Source: Entophlyctis helioformis (Eukaryota > Chytridiomycota > Chytridiomycetes > Chytridiales > Chytriomycetaceae). Taken from it: a stretch of DNA of 64,000 nt. How positions within the stretch are numbered: position 1 is the first letter of the stretch; the number at the start of each line of letters is the position of its first letter. The stretch is from the NCBI GenBank assembly GCA_025526915.1, contig JAHLKH010000013.1, positions 175,224 through 239,223 of the forward strand. Reading direction: 5' to 3'. This document shows, piece by piece, positions 34,901 to 44,251 of the stretch. Position numbers and translations under genes: made by a program. The notes under the pieces were generated by a model that ran no database searches, was not told where the DNA came from, and was given only the letters and a program-made list of their open reading frames with translations.

Positions 34901-35647
34901 CCTCCTCTTTGGTCGCACAGGTGAATACAGGCAATGCCCTCATAGCCACCAACAGCAGCAGGTTGCACACAAGTCTTGAACAGAACAGCACAGTGATGCA
35001 GAGCGAAAAGGATATCTTAATGAGACACTCAGCCGATCCAGTTGCTCTTGGCTGTCCAACAGGTGCCTGGCAACAAGTCGAAGCAAACCTAGATTGCATG
35101 AATATGCGCCGATGATGTTAGTATGAGAGATGCTTGTATCGGCACTCTGCTGGAGGTTGAGCAGCTGGAGGTTGAGCATGTCATTATTCTACCTGGTGGG
35201 CTGTTGATGGCGGAAGCTCCTTCCAATGCAAACGTCTTGCCGCTTCCACTGCGACCCATGGTTAGAATCGAGATGTTGAAGCCATCAATGCAGGAGTCGA
35301 CCAGCGGCTTGATTGAGGCGTTGAAAAGTGTGTCGATGTTCTCGGTTGCGTCGAGTACGTGGTCAAAGTGAAACGCGCGTTTTCTGGTTGACAGCCGCGT
35401 CAAACACACAGGGTCAGGTGCTGTCTTTGCTGGGTCGAGCCGCAGAGTGCGAAACCAACGACAGAGACCTTCCGCCTTTTGCCTCTTCGGCGATGGTGCA
35501 TGTTTTGGCAAGCACGTCCACCGATACGGTCGGCTTGCTTTTCCCAGTTGACACGGATGGCTTGATGCGCAGAAACACTTTTGCTTTGGAGAGCATGATT
35601 GCGGCCACGCGGAGAGACAGAGAGCGAATCTTCGGCCCGGTTCTCAT
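31997..35647 (-). CDS. Divergent kinesin-like protein with C-terminal coiled coil (CCDC78-like candidate)
   Basis: The 5' exons encode a kinesin motor fold: KVFLRIKPS (beta1), FHFDHVLDATENIDTLF, then a P-loop GRSGSGKT in place of GQTGSGKT, ICEVYGDWMRDLLNP, a switch II-like RLTVVDFCSADLFFADP in place of LVDLAGSE, and LLNEFGGNCITSILWMLDP. From about 33.9 kb down to the TAA stop it is coiled coil (DANERYERVLKKQVEYYR; LNTQADLEKERAMLLS). A degenerate motor plus coiled coil recalls the CCDC78 family, but I am not sure of orthology. AATAAA overlaps the stop. An alternative start is at 35596. The dynein start lies 55 bp beyond this stop on the same strand. Confidence 0.7.
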
Positions 35648-35656
35648 ACCATTACC

Positions 35657-35712
35657 CCTGGTGGAATCGCTGTGATTGGTCAATCCTGGTGGAATCGCTG
35701 TGATTGGTCGAT
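35657..35712 (-). promoter_or_regulatory. Two tandem 28-bp units, each with an inverted CCAAT box
   Basis: Two copies of CCTGGTGGAATCGCTGTGAT continuing into TGGTC(A/G)AT lie back to back, directly upstream of the kinesin-like start. Each holds ATTGG, the inverse of CCAAT, 28 bp apart. This is a plausible promoter element for the minus-strand gene. Confidence 0.45.
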
Positions 35713-36024
35713 CTAGAGAGCCCTTGCGCAGTGCTGTCACTGCGCGATGCGAGCACAGCAACGGCAGTGGTGCAGGTAGCAGCGCCTGCTGTCTCGCTGG
35801 GCGGTGCGTGTGTGTCCTCCATGAATAAAGACGGGCGAATGCATAGTCATGTGCAACGCTCTCTCTCTCTCTGAGGAGCATGCCATTCCACACACACACA
35901 GACCAGTGCTCCATGCATTGCCGCCAAACAATCAGAGAATGTCAATGCAAACAAACACCAGATCGCGACTTGCCACAACACACAACAACATGCAACAACA
36001 AACACACAAGCACGCCCAACACAC
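35713..36024. promoter_or_regulatory. Divergent intergenic region with CT and CA tracts
   Basis: Between the kinesin-like gene (-) and the XPG/Fanzor gene (+). It holds a CT run near 35863-35875, a (CA)n run at 35889-35901, and then about 90 bp of CA- and CAA-rich sequence running up to the ATG at 36025. No coding frame is convincing here. Confidence 0.4.
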
Positions 36025-37921
36025 ATGGGAGTCGTTGGCGCGACTGTACCCATCGACAAAGCAGGTGGTAGCAAAACCCTTGATCCCACAACCCTTCTCT
36101 CGGGTGCAATTCAGGTCGTGGTACAGCCCCCTCAAACACTGCAGCAGCACAACACAGAGCGTCCGCCCATCCAGTGTGTTGTGCATGTGGACATTCTCAG
36201 TCTTTTTGCCGGCGATATCTACAAAGCAGCACCAATACTGCTGGCACAGCCAGAGGAAAACTGGACGCCGACACTCGAGCCGCTCATTGCCAGCCTCGCA
36301 GCATCGATTGGAAAGCTCCACACAGTCCGGCTCCATGTCGATGGCTCGCTTCTCAACACCAATATCAAGGCTGTCCGCACTGAGCAGGCACGGGTAAATT
36401 TGGAAGCAGCATTGTCGATCCAGACAATGGTGGCCAAGCGAAAAGCAGACCAGAAAGGCAACAGGCTCACAAAGTATGCCACTTGCTGCTGTTGATTTGC
36501 ATGCCGTGCTGACTGAGTGCCTTTCCAGGGACGAGATCCAGTCACTCCAGTGGGCGTTTCCATTGACATGCGCACGCAAGGCGGCAATCTGTGGGGCCAT
36601 TGGGGGTCTTCTTGGATACTTTGGGGAAGGGTCATCTGTGTGCCTTTGCAAGAATGAGGCGGATGTTTGCATTGCATGCCGCGTGTGTGAAGCAAGGTTG
36701 GTTTGTCTTCTGCATGCTTCTCCAATCCATGGCTCACGCGCCTTTCTTGACAGCAATGTGCTGGTTGTCGTCATCAGTGGTGATACTGACCTCATCTTTC
36801 ATTGTGCCGGCTATTGCCCTGTCCTGCTGCTGCAAATGCGCGGCAGACAGATTGCACAGATGAGATCGTACAACCACCCAGGTGTAGCATCTATTGCAGC
36901 CACCTTTGACTTGCCAGAGATTCTTGACATCTGCCGGTTGGCGGCAGCAGCAGCAAGAAATGACTATTTTCATTGTGATGAGATTGGTATGTTGGCTTGC
37001 CTGCTTTGCAATTTTGGATGCCATGCGCTGCGACCTTGACTTACTCGTGATGCTGCAATGTTGACTTGCAAGGGATCGTCACGGCTGCAAAGTGCATTAT
37101 GGCATGCATTCGTTTTGAGGCAACATGGGCAGGGATCACTGTCGCAGAGTTCCGTCAATGCCTGCAAGACCCAGACCTTGCCAGGATGTTTGTGGACGTC
37201 TTCAAGGCCTCATTTATGTTGCAGATGTACAAGATCGGCGGCAAGCCTCTTGCTCAATCGTTCAGCAATGCCTTCGCGGTGTTTCTCAACCGTGACGAAA
37301 CTGGAGCGGATATTGGAGAGTTCACAGACCAAAGCCATGGTTGTTATGGGGATGTTTTTGCTCAAATGATACCGCTGTAAGTCTTGCTTTGGATGCACTT
37401 GGACAGCATGGCATTGACATGAATGCATGCACCATCCAATGGCAACAGCAGGACTACCAACAGGGCCGCCTCGGCTCGAAAAAAGTAGGTGTGCTTGTGA
37501 TCTCTGGAGGATTCTCATGGCACTGACTCTGAGGGATGCCACTGGCAGATCTGCCTCTGCATGCACAGCCTACAGCAACTGCTGCTTGAGCCACACGGCA
37601 CAGCAGCTGAAGGGTAATGCCAGTGGTGCGGTTTGGCACCTTACACGGGATGAAGTCATGGTGCTCGCCAAGCACATTGTCAACACAAGGCAACTGGACG
37701 ACGTTTTTGTCATGCTCAATGGCTGCTGTGTCGTGTTTAGCTGTGTTCTCCGATGCACGGCAGATCAGCTTGCCGATGACATTCTCAACGGCCGCGACAT
37801 CCTTGCTGATATCTGCGAGAATGCAAGCAAGCAGCTGCTGCAGGCTGTGCATGACTGGCGTATTGCTAAAGAAGCATATGCAAGGCTCAGTGCGGCTGGC
37901 AAGATTCTTTATCATGCATTG
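36025..37921 (+). other. XPG/FEN1-like nuclease domain region of the composite gene (intact exons)
   Basis: Six exons splice without stop or frameshift. The first is 149 codons and ends RLTK, with a donor at about 36472. The second begins DEIQSLQWAF and ends in the KNEADVCIAC segment. The third carries ISGDTDLIFH and ends FHCDEIG. The fourth resumes GIVTAAKCIMACIRFE, completing the helix-two-turn-helix. A short exon and a 124-codon exon (LTRDEVMVLAKHI...AAGKILYHAL) follow. XPG-family enzymes cut 5' flaps and branched DNA; activity here is inferred only from the conserved acidic residues. Confidence 0.75.
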
Positions 37922-37973
37922 GTGGGTTTTGCGAGGCTTGGATGCATGTCTTGGCTGTCCACTGCATGCTGTT

Positions 37974-38157
37974 TGTAGTACTGGGCCGCCAGACGGGCTT
38001 GCCGGCTGGTCTCGGGGCAGTGAGTATGCACGCAGGGGAACGGCGGGCAGACGACTGCAAGAACGGGGGAAACCAGAGCGGCCGGTGCGGCCCGACAATG
38101 TCTGTCCGGTCACGTGGATCACGTGGATCACGTGACCGCGACCGAGCATCCGTTACA
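37974..38157 (+). repeat. Terminal repeat copy A (LTR-like)
   Basis: 184 bp with ends TGTAG...TTACA. It holds three CACGTG hexamers spaced 9 bp apart in the CACGTGGAT run near its right end. Confidence 0.85.
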
Positions 38158-39534
38158 CTCCCCCCAGTGTAGACAGCCACTCATAAGAAAGAAGAGTGGA
38201 TGAACAGCGACTAAGAGGATGCATGGGCGTTGCACACACAAGAAGCAGAGGTGTGGGCAACAATGGACGCGAAGGACACAGGACGGGGAACCGTGCGCAC
38301 AGAGCAACAAGGAGAGAGAGAGATGGAGTGGATGGAAGGGGAAGAGATGGAGAGGTGGCTTGGATGGAAGAGGGAAAGGTGGAGAGGTGGACAGATCAGG
38401 GCCGAGAGGGTGAACATGGTCAACAGACACATGAACAGGTGGACAAGCCGGATGGTGCGGCGATCAGGATGGAAAGGCAACAGCAGCTGCGAGATCGTGC
38501 CGGTGGTGACCGAGCTGACGTGCATGGCTGTGTTGGTGTAAGCTGATCCGAATGTGGTCAGAGCTGTACGGTGTAGGGTGGCGGCTGATGGCTGGTCAGG
38601 GACGCAGTGTGGGTTCAAGTGGCGATCCAAAAGGGATCCCACCCCAGACTCCTCTCGCAAGAGGCACCGAGCATGGCCTGGATACCCGGTCCAGGAGCTG
38701 ATGCTGAGCTACAGATGTGCAACGTGCTGGGGCCGGTGTCTGCAGGCTGTGGCCGATGGATGCTGATGCTGAGACCAATGGCGGCTGGGTGGCTGAGGCG
38801 GCTGATGCTGCCAAGGCCGGGGTGATGAACGCGCCCGTCGACGAGAACATCGTGCTGCAGAAGCAGCGAGGCACAAGCCGATCCAGTGGTGGTTGATATG
38901 GCGGACAATGCAGCTGCGGCAGATGCAGGCTGTGCCGTGCTGACGCGAATGCCGATACTGACGTGCTGATCCAGATGTGGTCAGGACTGATCGGCGTGGT
39001 TGTGGCGGCTGACGAAAGTTGCAGCAGTGCAGTTGAGGGTGTAAGTGGTGATCGGCTGTGGATCCCGCCCCAACTCCTCTCACAGGAGGCACAGAGCATG
39101 CCTGGAGACAATGTCCAGAAGCAGATGCGGCGACAAGCAGGTGGAGCTGATGCTGGCGAGCGAGCTGATGCTGGCAGATATCAAACCATGCGACGGAAGG
39201 CGAGTGTGAGGCGGCTGTAAAGAGGCATAGGATGCCAGAGCCGGTGGGTGGATGACGACACTGCCCACTGCCAGCTGCTGACCAAGACGCATGAAAAAAA
39301 AAGTGCGCTGGTGCACAGCGGCCAGTGTCGACAAGCGGATGCCGCGAGAGCACAGGAGCGTTGAGACGAGGACGTCCAGTGTGCGAGACTCGAGGCGCAA
39401 CTCCGCAGGGCCTGGGTGGCAAGACTGCCGACCGCCAGCAGGCCCTGGTTCCAGCCGAGGCAGCAGAGGCGGCGAGGATGTCCAGCCAAGCTCACCAATG
39501 CTGCCCCGACCGAAAAAAAAAGTTGGGTTCTTGC
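38158..39534 (+). other. Non-coding interior of the LTR-like element
   Basis: It contains a purine-rich minisatellite (about 38305-38420, GGATGGA/GGAGAGG motifs) and two diverged tandem copies of a block of about 430 bp. Both start near GCTGATCC(G/A)(A/G)ATGTGGTCA (about 38542 and 38968) and both carry GGATCCC(A/G)CCCC..CTCCTCTC. CTGATG-rich low-complexity sequence fills the rest. There is no gag, pol or other recognisable frame. Confidence 0.55.
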
Positions 39535-39727
39535 TGTAGTACTGGGCCTCCAGGCGGACTTGCCGGCTGGTCTCGGGGCAGTGAGTATGCACGCAGGGGA
39601 ACGGCGGGCAGACGACTGCAAGAACGGGGGAAACCAGAGCGGCCGGTGCGGCCCGACAATGTCTGTCCGGTCACGTGGGTCACGTGGATCACGTGGATCA
39701 CGTGACCGCGACCGAGCATCCGTTACA
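39535..39727 (+). repeat. Terminal repeat copy B (LTR-like)
   Basis: 193 bp, a near-identical partner of copy A, with four CACGTG hexamers instead of three; the single 9-bp unit accounts for the whole length difference. Confidence 0.85.
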
Positions 39728-40288
39728 ATCCATACCTGGTCACACCAGCCATGCAGGCTGAGCGTGATAAGGAGCAAGCTGAGCAAGCTGAGAAGGCCAA
39801 GACCAAGAAGTTCATCCAGGAGCACAAGAAGGATGCGAGCAGGCAAGCCCGCCAGGCTCCATCTGAGGACGAGACACGGGCGTAAGTGGCATATGGCATG
39901 GCATGTGCCTTGAGTGTGTGTGCTGACCGGTGCGTTCTTTGACAGATACGAGCGTGGTGAAAGATCAGCGATAGAGCAGATGCTTGAAAAGATCCACCGC
40001 ATGATGGCATTGCCAGTCATGACAGCTGCTGCTGCCATCCATGGCAATGAGGCAAGGCTGGTGGAGAGCACATACGATCGCCCTGAGCAGATCGTCAAAA
40101 TGGAGGTATGAGTTTGGATTGCCATGTCGCTCTGCATGTCTGGCTTTGTGTATGCTGACTTGTGCTACACACAGGAAATGCTCTCTGGAGATCCAATGCT
40201 TGCAAAGTATTTTGGACGCCAGGCCAAGACGGCACCGGCAACACAGACCTGCGGTTCACTTTCAGAAAGCATCTTCAATGGCGTGTAC

Positions 40289-40291
40289 TGA
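40289..40291 (+). other. In-frame TGA in the composite gene
   Basis: The frame reads SESIFNGVY-TGA-YTADVRRACITMIGAIV and continues open on both sides. One substitution (TGG to TGA) would explain it. It is alternatively the true end of an XPG-like gene. Confidence 0.6.
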
Positions 40292-40364
40292 TACACGGCC
40301 GACGTGCGGCGTGCATGCATCACTATGATTGGCGCCATTGTTAAAGAGCTCGTCGCGCTCAACC

Positions 40365-40633
40365 CATATTGTAACGGATGCTCAGTCGCGGTCACGTGAT
40401 CCACGTGATCCACGTGACCAGACAGACATTGTCGGGCCGCACTGGCCGCTCTGGTTTTCCCCGTTCTTGCAGTCGTCTGCCCGCTGTTCCCCTGCGTGCA
40501 TACTCACTGCCCCGAGACCAGGTCTGTGCTGCCTCCCAATGAAGTAGTCGTCTGCCCACCGTTCCCCTGCGTGCATACTCACTGCCCCGAGACCAGCCGG
40601 CAAGTCCGCCTGGAGGCCCAGTGCTACACATAT
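40365..40633 (-). mobile_element. Solo LTR-like insertion with 5-bp target duplication, inside an exon
   Basis: A third copy of the repeat (259 bp, 40370-40628) lies in reverse orientation, flanked by CATAT on both sides. It carries an internal duplication of about 51 bp (from CAGTCGTCTGCCC to CCCGAGACCA) separated by about 24 bp of unique sequence, which explains the 75 extra bases over copy A. Removing the element and one CATAT joins ALNPY to APLPLKFCVMEA in the same frame. The element has in-frame stops, so it disrupts the host frame. Confidence 0.85.
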
Positions 40634-42607
40634 GCACCGCTGCCACTCAAGTTCTGTGTCATGGAGGCCAGGAGGAATGGTGAGATGGAATATGTGTATA
40701 TTGATCCTGATCACTTCAAAGACGAGAGCGCGTGGCTCTACGCCACTGGATGCATCCTCAGATGGCCCGTTAATGCCCGGCGCATGTATGGCGAGGCCCG
40801 CTCTGCAGCAACACCGACATTGCTCACTATGGCGACTTGGTGAGACTTGAGGCAGGCACAATGGTCAAGATCTGCACCTTCACCAACGACACAGCACCAG
40901 CAGTAGCAACAGCAGCACCAGCAGCAGTAGCCGCCGCATCCAGCAGCACCATGCCCAACCACCAGCCATCGAGCCACCACTACAACGGGCAGTACCATTG
41001 GCAAATGATCTGCTCAAGGTGCTCACAAACAGCACCTCTAGTGGCGAGGGAGCCGTCACGATGCTTCTGCGATACCTGGGCTACATTCTCACTGGTCAGG
41101 AGTCAGTCATGCTGCAGGCAACAAAGCATGTGGCCCACTCGTGGATCGTGACCATCATGCAGATGATCATCAACCGCGAATGGACACAGCAGATGATTTG
41201 GGACAGCATGACCAAGATGCAGGCTGGTGTGGCGTGGGCAGCCAAGATGGACGCGACGCAGGCCGGCTCATTGCTGTCAGCCATTGTGCACATGGACGCA
41301 AGCACGATGCATGCCGTTTTGCCTGGCAGGCTTGACACAGTTTGTGTGTAGCTGCTCGGAAGACATCTATGGCAACTTGCACGGGGCATCTGTGGCATGC
41401 TTGCTGTGCACTTCATGACCCACCAGTTGATGCTCATTGACTGGGCAATCCACCGACTGATTCCTGGTATATCTGCTGACAAGGCAGCGGAATTTGCCAA
41501 GGCAATGGATACAGCCACTGGGACGCCACGTCTGGCACGCCACTGTCAACCAGACAAGACGGACGCGTTGTCGAGATCCCACAAGCACTGCACAGGCTCA
41601 CGGCGGTCGTGCGCAACAAGTCGCTGTCAGAGGCGGCAAGTTCAAGCAGTTGTGTGATCTCGCAGGCTCATCCCTCAAGTTGTGTCCGCAGCCTGCAGGC
41701 CGCGATCCGTTTGTCCTCATCACTGAGACGACGCTCTTTCTGGCAGTGATGAGGACAAAGGATGAGCGCATCCGTGGCAATCAGGATCCTGCTTTGCAGG
41801 CATTGAGACTACAGCTTCTGGCTGCACTTGGTTGGTCGCACTGCCTGTATATGCCATGTGTACACAATTTGATGCTGACACTGCACTTTTCTCCAAGGCT
41901 ACAAAGATGCCGAGTCAGCTCTTGCGTCATCCAACAAGGATATCCAAGACGCATTCAGCGCAAGTCGCGAGGTTTGCATCTTTGACATCCTTCTCCCAGG
42001 TCTCCGCCCCAAGAACGGTCGCTTCCAGACACCTTCAGAAGCCAAAGATGAGATGGACACGGTTACCAAGGCCACAGCCAAGGCGACGTGAGAGGCCGAT
42101 GAGCAGGGTCTGGATGGCAAGGAGCGCAAGAAGCATATCAAGGCTGCGATTGATGCTGTGCGTCCAGCAAGACCAACCAAGCGGACACGGCTGGGCAGCA
42201 TCATGACGGATGGATACAGCATCTACCAGCTGGCACTGGACTGCCGCACAAACCGTCCAGAGTCACCTCGCAGTATGTGGCGTGCTTGAATGCGATGGTG
42301 CACACATTGGTTCTGACTGCCGCCTTGCTCTGCATATCCAATCTGGTGTCTTCAGGCGAGCAGCCGTGGCTTGTTGACAAGGCTGATGGCAAGCCCGATT
42401 ACATTAACGGCGAATGTGAGTTGCTGTGCCAATCCAGACGCACACTTGTTGTCCACACCAACTGACATGCCATCCACAGCCGCCGATCCAGCCAACCTAT
42501 CAGCCACCAAGCCATACACGCCCAATCCTGTAAGCCACTTGCATGCTAAACTCGCGCATTGGTGCACATGCATTGCACATTCCTCACTCATGCCATGGCA
42601 TGACAGG

Positions 42608-44081
42608 GCAAGCGCAACTTTTATGCCTCACAGCGACTGCGCAACATCATCAATGCCAACAATCTGTTCACTGACCAAGGCTACCAGACTGTTCGCGTTG
42701 TCAGCTTTGATTGGGGCCAGCGGTACCTGTATGGCGCGTCCAGTATCTTGGTTGATCTCAGAGACTTTTCGTATAAGCTCGAGTCCAACTACGTGCTCTC
42801 CTCTGGCATGTTTCAAGCTGAGCGTGACTTTCAGCGGTGGTATGCATGCAATGACTCTGCCATGCGCACTCTTGACCAGATCAACTCACAGTGCCTGCCT
42901 CCTGTGCCAGGCTCAACAATCGATATGCCAAGGCAACTGACATCCAAGCGGCCATCGCATTCAAGACAGCAAAGCATGCCGATCCAAACGTCAAGCCTGG
43001 CGAGAGAGCCTTTTGGGATCTGCGCTGTCATGCATACTGCACGCCATTCCTCAATGCACGGGTACGTTTTCTCTGTTTCTGGATGCCCATTGGCATGGCC
43101 GCCATGCTGCTTGATCGCCTGCTGATCACACTGGATGGCATGGCATGGCATGGCATTCCACAGAAGGTCAAGGCCAAGCGGTTTGCCATGCGCAGCAGCC
43201 GCACATCTGATCGCGGAAACGCTCTTGAGGGCATCATGAAGCTGGCAGGATCGACCACTAGATATCGCGCATCTCCTGCGTCTCAAGGCCTGCCCTTCGA
43301 CCAAACAAAGCCGGCAGAGGACAACATCCCAGTTGTCTGGGCATTGGGCATCGACTTTACTGGCAAGGGTGGCCGGCATGCTGTGTTTGAGAAGTTTCTC
43401 ATCAGGCATCTGCGGTCGTCTGGATATGCCTATGTGCGTCTGATGCCACACTGTCCATCCATCCATCTGTGCACCAACTGACCACACGATCCTGCACACA
43501 CACACACACACACACAGATCTACCGCTGCAACGAGAACCTGACCAGCCAGATGTGCCCGCAGTGCAAGCAGCGCATCCCATACAAGAACCGCACCAACCT
43601 GCGACGCTACGAGTGCATACCATGCACGACCGTCTACCACCGCGATGTGCTTGGAGCCACCAACATCGGGATGGTCGCACTGTGGCATCTACTCTTTGGA
43701 CACCGGCCGCTCTACTTGACGCACACCAAAGCCGACAGCAATCCAGCCACGACAGAGTACCTTGCAGACATCGCGGCAATGCATCTATTCATCCAGGATT
43801 GTGCACGAAATGCTCCGTCTGTTGTCCCACAGCCTCAAACGCGGAAACACTTCAAGTCGCATGTGGCCTCATGGGACCAGATCAGCCTGCCGTCCTGTGG
43901 CGTTCAAGACGTGCTGTACAGCAGCGTTCAAGACACGGACCATCCGTCGTCCAGCTGCGACCAGCACGCAGACAGCCTGCCCTCAAGTCACTTGACCTGC
44001 ATCCCACACAGTGACTTGTTTGACTACCAACTCTTTGAATCGGGGCACCTCCCGATCGACCTAACGGGTCACTTTTTCTAA
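42608..44081 (+). other. Fanzor catalytic region (RuvC-like with zinc finger)
   Basis: This region holds the RuvC-I-like Asp of SFDWGQRYLYGA, then ATDIQAAIAF, a basic exon (KVKAKRFAMRSS), the ALGIDFTGKGGRH strand, and the last exon. That exon starts YRCNENLTSQMC and has the CxxC...CxxC zinc ribbon and RDVLGATNI. In TnpB/Fanzor the Glu before the TS and the Asp of RD complete the RuvC triad, and both are present. The last exon adds an unusual C-terminal tail of about 145 residues. An intron before the zinc-finger exon ends in a (CA)n tract at 43495-43519. Confidence 0.85.
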
Positions 44082-44251
44082 CGATAAAGGTAAGACCCTC
44101 GTTGGATGTGCCTCGCCCGCCTGTCGTCGCATGCTCGTTGCTGACTCGAACCTTCCATCGTGTGATATGTGGCTTGCATTCGACGCCTCTTGCGACGAAT
44201 TTAACTCCAAAATCCTTGGTGATTGTATCTTTATCGGGCCGAATCTTCATT
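44082..44251. other. Region 3' of the Fanzor stop; candidate guide-RNA or element-end region
   Basis: 170 bp between the Fanzor stop and the convergent eIF2B alpha stop. It has inverted 8-bp arms, CGATAAAG just after the stop and CTTTATCG about 140 bp later. Fanzor and TnpB guide RNAs are normally encoded at and beyond the 3' end of the ORF, so this is where one would be expected. Nothing in the sequence proves it. Confidence 0.25.

Follow-up and report, generated by a model that had tools for sequence, protein, structure and literature searches.

Can an RNA-guided Fanzor nuclease and a flap endonuclease of the XPG/FEN1 type be carried by one and the same polypeptide? This question is raised by a locus of the chytrid Entophlyctis helioformis, at positions 36025-44081 of a 64,000-nucleotide stretch (hereafter the window; C13:175224-239223), in which an earlier note, made from the sequence alone, had read a single frame running from an XPG/FEN1 fold into a Fanzor. 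We analysed this locus together with its relatives in the genome (29.6 Mb searched) and found that it sits within a copy of a DNA transposon extending from 35634 to 44240 on the plus strand. The explanation that we favour, and consider moderately probable, is that the window holds a dead copy of a high-copy transposon, whose working ancestor would have encoded an XPG/FEN-like and Fanzor protein, guided from the right end of the element, with the two nucleases cooperating in its copying.

The window copy provides the two extremities of this protein. Exons E1 to E6, joined through GT-AG introns, give an open frame of 520 residues, in which the metal-binding acids announced by the earlier note are present in the expected order: E1 (36025-36473; MGVVG start, VHVD and LHVD), E2 (36529-36696; NEAD), E3 (36754-36986; SGDTD and RNDYF), E4 (37073-37376), the 33-nt E5 (37452-37484) and E6 (37549-37921). 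At the other extremity, the four exons E16 (42607-42839; RuvC-I, FDWG), E17 (42911-43061), E18 (43164-43433) and E19 (43518-44081; shifted RuvC glutamate, C4 zinc ribbon, RuvC-III RD and stop) form a single open frame from 42607, which includes the RuvC-I aspartate and ends at 44081. All these exons, like those that follow, lie on the plus strand; they were placed with a splice model, assisted by alignment for E1-E3, by the sequence itself for E5, by relatives for E6 and by Pfam for E19.

Between the two extremities, the window copy is dead. A non-autonomous long terminal repeat (LTR) element on the minus strand (37974-39727, LTRs at 37974-38157 and 39535-39727) replaces E7-E9, as revealed by comparison with the relative L042 (identity of 94-97% where the two align), which has at this place about 0.68 kb carrying E7-E9 and the E10 acceptor, all lost from the window copy. 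There, E10 (39728-39881) is left without its acceptor and first base. Since the outer flanks of the LTR element, read by eye, show no matching duplication and 0.68 kb of the host transposon has been replaced, a recombination between LTR insertions is likely. Comparison with relatives also places E11 (39946-40105), the long Fanzor-side exon E12 (40175-41830), which is broken in this copy, E14 (42356-42415) and E15 (42480-42529). The sequence of E12 contains a solo LTR (40370-40628, plus strand, target-site duplication CATAT), which is related to the LTR element and has an internal repeat spaced 75 nt, and E13 (41898-42272) carries an in-frame TGA at 42089 (42089-42091). Stops and frameshifts follow the solo LTR, and no continuous frame joins the halves in this copy. 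The XPG-Fanzor splice junction of the window copy was made by the LTR insertion, and the continuous splice read there is therefore not real. A direct joining of E6 to E10 was considered and rejected; relatives carry three exons between them.

The case for a fusion thus has to be made on the relatives. We compared nine of them (L039-L046 and L077, the XPG part of the latter being 34% identical to that of the window) and found a common plan of 19 exons. Scored with modal phases, which were reset at each exon and so tell less about one unbroken frame, E7, E9, E11 and E14 are open and in frame in all nine relatives, E5, E8 and E10 in eight, E2, E3, E15, E17 and E18 in seven, E4, E6 and E13 in six, E1 in five, E12 in four and E16 in three, while E19 has no internal stop in 9/9 and an aligned length in frame in 2/9. 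One relative, L040, is open from E2 through E15. For the five introns of the E6-E11 segment, both splice sites are kept in all nine relatives (the E6 donor GT included), with matching phases. Across the other eight copies, 5/5 donors and 5/5 acceptors are retained, against 5/49 for other GT and 17/77 for other AG dinucleotides. This comparison is optimistic, as introns 6-9 had been selected visually in the very alignment that served to score them. These introns measure 64-97 nt and leave no room for a gene boundary. The conserved shift of frame at first suspected between E7 and E8 was rejected, being actually an intron.

The association of the two halves was then followed through the genome, where all match numbers are lower bounds: at least 149 for E3, at least 150 for E12 and at least 150 for the zinc ribbon, scored out of 205 candidates. 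E3 is found on the same strand, 2-6 kb upstream, in 109 of 149 E12 matches (observed distances 2.8-5.6 kb, 101 of them at 2.8-3.4 kb), the controls giving 0, 0 and 0. Reciprocally, 116/147 E3 have an E12 at most 10 kb downstream. At the far end of the gene, E4 lies 3.5-8.5 kb upstream of 61/150 zinc ribbons; the downstream control gave 0, the two opposite-strand controls gave 1 and 0, and 200 random runs averaged 1.7 with a highest value of 6. E3 is paired with 60/150 ribbons, or 71/150 within 13 kb, and 26 of 40 right ends are paired with an E3. The XPG-then-Fanzor order, found between E3 and E12 at some hundred loci against no case in the control orientations, is beyond chance. An unrelated distribution of the two halves, the outcome that the earlier note held to speak against a fusion, was looked for and not seen. 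Against a general pairing, 33/149 E12 have no XPG exon within 10 kb (e.g., C237:32920 and C262:24147); some of them are near contig ends, and the rest could be elements without XPG or copies truncated at the 5' end, which would make them natural controls. The idea that most Fanzors here lack XPG, suggested by right ends outnumbering left ends, was rejected, the E3 search having given at least 149 matches.

The exon chain and the co-linearity are thus directly demonstrated, and because both the chain with its phases in nine relatives and the arrangement at the 109 loci point the same way, a fusion is supported as the probable ancestral structure of the transposon family, not of the window copy. 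The single frame of the earlier note accordingly holds for the exon chain of the relatives and fails for the window copy; in the relatives, both domains were found as co-linear halves, and 0/9 are open from E1 to E19. This last count weighs against the fusion, as do several other observations. The E5 acceptor aligns in 1/9 relatives only. A comparative gene finder split the gene with 2/5 references, at different places, and gave one gene with 3/5. A fused model of 1,802 residues compared with a protein database (8,000 candidates scored) found no protein of that size class, and the database model P0001 is XPG-only, with 397 residues ending in ...ARKK just before intron 5. Gene-model scripts, which can skip whatever sequence separates a GT from an AG, prove little, and a substitution-phase scan was too noisy to be informative. 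These observations lead to an alternative to which we give a low probability, namely that the locus makes two products, a XPG-only protein of about 397 residues, through retention of intron 5, and a separate or full-length Fanzor, the two being partners rather than one chain. It would account for the end of P0001, for the absence of a fused protein among the scored candidates and for the split by two references; moreover, in the window, the unspliced codon after E5 is an immediate TAG. However, E6-E11 stay in phase with conserved splice sites, the database model P0002 continues into E6-type sequence, and the introns are too short for an intergenic region.

The transposon itself and its ends, absent from the earlier note and found in this analysis, are directly observed. 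The ends common to relatives define a terminal inverted repeat, GGCCCG...CGGGCC, and flank comparison shows that the window copy is bordered by an identical 8-bp target-site duplication, GAATCTTC, at 35626-35633 on the left and 44241-44248 on the right. Both ends are readable in nine copies, whose duplications were compared by eye: they are perfect over 8 bp in C13, C294 and C176, match at 7/8 positions in C30 and C139 and at 6/8 in C69, and none is seen in C67 or C10. The copy of C356 (L022, L050) shares its flanks with the window copy, so that it represents either an allelic contig or a (segmental) duplication and is not counted as an independent insertion. A point against our reading is that no recognisable transposase appeared in the pieces scanned with Pfam, E6-E12 included; the middle exons gave weak YL1 and Zip matches only, below cut-offs, in the acidic repeat of L040. 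In E12 of L040, His/Asp-rich acidic repeats occupy the middle of the protein; they occur in one subfamily, and their length differs among copies.

This lack of a transposase domain in the scanned pieces gives some weight to a second alternative, which we also regard as unlikely. According to it, the XPG-like domain would be the own transposition nuclease of the element, acting on its ends or on strand-transfer intermediates, as proposed for AcademX, whose nuclease we take to be of the XPG type; the Fanzor would have a separate homing or retention role, and the fusion would be packaging. AcademX is, like the present element, a DNA transposon with an extra nuclease, one that the available part of its description links to target-site duplication length (3-4 bp in AcademX, 9-10 bp in AcademH; PMC10045372). 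However, the duplications are here 8 bp, thus neither 3-4 nor 9-10 bp, and their clean state suggests an unseen DDE-type transposase. In addition, AcademX belongs to a known transposase superfamily, and no Fanzor is mentioned in that part of the text (PMC10045372). The likeness to Academ moreover rests on descriptions and not on sequences, and among open-licence papers none was found that links Academ with XPG, or XPG with DNA transposons. KolobokP is likewise a DNA transposon paired with a break-making nuclease, in this case, as far as the accessible part of the paper tells, a His-Me finger homing nuclease next to a DDE transposase, with long terminal direct repeats (PMC9587614).

For the C-terminal half, the RuvC residues and the zinc ribbon seen by the earlier note are borne out. 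The TnpB/Fanzor zinc ribbon of E19 matches PF07282 above its cut-off (E 7.7e-9, 36 bits, cut-off 26.3), and the genome holds at least 150 such C4 ribbons. In the portions of the two papers at our disposal, the Fanzor motif is given as D-X(125,275)-[TS][TS]XX-C4-X(5,50)-RD (Bao and Jurka 2013, PMC3627910), and Fanzors are said to have a RuvC-II glutamate six residues before the ribbon and, near exclusively, a DPG at RuvC-I (Yoon et al. 2023). The spliced tail of the window fits the former motif, as read by eye, and 33/38 loci, as well as the window copy, present the shifted glutamate together with the ribbon pattern. On the contrary, RuvC-I is DWG in 33/35 E16 matches and DPG in 0/35, which speaks against a classical Fanzor; no PDB chain was matched by the tail, searched as a single sequence. 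Owing to this DWG, we filed the C-terminal half as Fanzor-type, to judge from its motifs, with one untypical motif, and not as a typical Fanzor. A half that combines the shifted glutamate with DWG bears on the origin of the Fanzor active site.

As for the N-terminal half, XPG proteins start with MG-x-x-G, and both this start and the order of the motifs are those of XPG/FEN proteins. The conservation of the active-site residues is directly demonstrated: across two divergent subfamilies, the motif acids are conserved in 7/7 cases against 4/30 for other acids (p 3.2e-5), one copy, L022, having an N at the second acid site. The Pfam profile XPG_I_2 matches the same region in 5/5 A2 members and in 4/4 database models. 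However, the profile and structure searches proposed by the earlier note gave, besides this recurrent match, no further support for its XPG/FEN1 assignment. The best XPG_I_2 score (E 4.5e-4, 20.2 bits) is below the curated cut-off of 24.2, and the window protein scores slightly better with DUF7742 and FAD_binding_4. AlphaFold2, run on the XPG part with five sequences, returned a predicted local distance difference test (pLDDT) of 37.9 and a predicted template-modelling score (pTM) of 0.25, and the model was thus uninformative. PDB searches with the XPG part gave no match, and NCBIfam and PHROGs searches no support for XPG. Scanning the whole genome with XPG_I_2 yielded 3 matches, located on C1 and C38 and outside the listed element copies. 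That the domain has another acidic-site or PIN-like fold is in our opinion quite improbable: the weak scores, the similarly weak ones of other PIN-like families in P0002 and the poor structural results would suit it, while the motif order, the MG-x-x-G start and the recurrence of XPG_I_2 in the same region of these members and database models argue for XPG. We therefore call this half XPG-like, on motif and weak profile support.

The XPG-like half has had a history of its own. Relative to L077, synonymous divergence (dS) reaches 1.1-1.8 in the XPG exons and 0.13-0.27 in E16-E19. Identity between L042 and L077 is 0.45-0.70 over E1-E14 and 0.79-0.94 over E15-E19, and between L046 and L040 it is 0.91-1.00 over E1-E10, 0.48-0.71 over E11-E14 and 0.88-0.99 over E15-E19. 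This contrast of dS and identity along the exons argues that the module made of RuvC and right end is exchanged or homogenised among elements, that the XPG halves diverge and that a middle cassette is swapped. Elements with unlike 5' parts on near-identical Fanzor 3' parts were reported by Bao and Jurka (2013, PMC3627910), for instance MCi-2 of Mucor, which has 11-12-bp duplications, is without inverted ends and for which the consulted portion of that paper mentions no XPG part. The ratio of nonsynonymous to synonymous substitutions (dN/dS) in the XPG exons is 0.26-0.49 in 7/8 comparisons, made between copies that are related and in part broken; the remaining one, at 0.83, detracts from a picture of constraint. 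The 6/6 matches of the XPG-like protein in the protein database come from E. helioformis, and viral contigs contain pattern stretches but, at the sensitivity used, no relative. A mere hitchhiking, in which the fusion is ancestral and was carried along as the element spread, its XPG part being useless to it, would agree with this restriction of the relatives to one genome, but is very improbable, as XPG halves at such a dS from L077 retain the seven acids with dN/dS mostly below 0.5.

Returning to the favoured reading of a fused, right-end-guided ancestor, we infer both nuclease activities, the guide RNA, its targets and the division of labour. The ancestor would have had one 19-exon gene for a protein of about 1,750-1,900 residues, in which a variable middle separates the XPG/FEN-like nuclease at the N-terminus from the Fanzor-type nuclease, with RuvC and zinc ribbon, at the C-terminus. 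The conserved right end downstream of the gene (44082-44240, plus strand), placed by the alignment of relatives, is a candidate guide-RNA source, and probably yields a guide. Its alignment (27 sequences) folds better than column shuffles (z -4.1), which is no more than suggestive, as such shuffles ignore dinucleotides; the Rfam search at gathering thresholds and the tRNA scan gave 0 matches each. The right-end RNA, extending into the flank, would direct the Fanzor half to an unoccupied or emptied site. The element would then be copied in the repair of the break, while the XPG half would remove flaps or trim branched DNA, either at the cut or in the course of this repair. More tentatively, one polypeptide might bring the RNA-guided Fanzor and the XPG-type flap nuclease in cis onto the cut DNA and turn breaks into element copies, divergent XPG halves sharing the same cutter through exchange of the RuvC/right-end module. 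As to what a Fanzor does for its transposon, a second nuclease-like domain that divergent subfamilies keep in frame with it points to one definite step, the processing of the cut or of a repair intermediate. If true, this would be a natural design for linking a programmable cut with the processing of its ends.

The earlier note knew of no Fanzor with a flap-nuclease domain, and in the open-licence literature we also found no XPG-Fanzor fusion; in one paper where Fanzor and flap endonuclease occur together, the terms are used of viral genes, without fusion. The closest known systems are the Fanzor1 elements, such as SPu-1 of Spizellomyces punctatus, which is likewise a chytrid DNA transposon with inverted ends, a Fanzor motif, a conserved right end and no recognisable transposase, according to the available sections of two papers (PMC3627910, PMC10432273). 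SPu-1 is there about 2.1 kb long, with one 633-residue open reading frame and putative TA duplications, in contrast to the multi-exon gene of about 6.6 kb, the XPG-like N-terminal part and the 8-bp duplications of the Entophlyctis element.

Directly left of the transposon, a minus-strand reading frame (35089-35643) contains the P-loop GRSGSGKTF. We presume this frame to be kinesin-like, and, as it adjoins the left end, the element would thus have inserted beside a gene.

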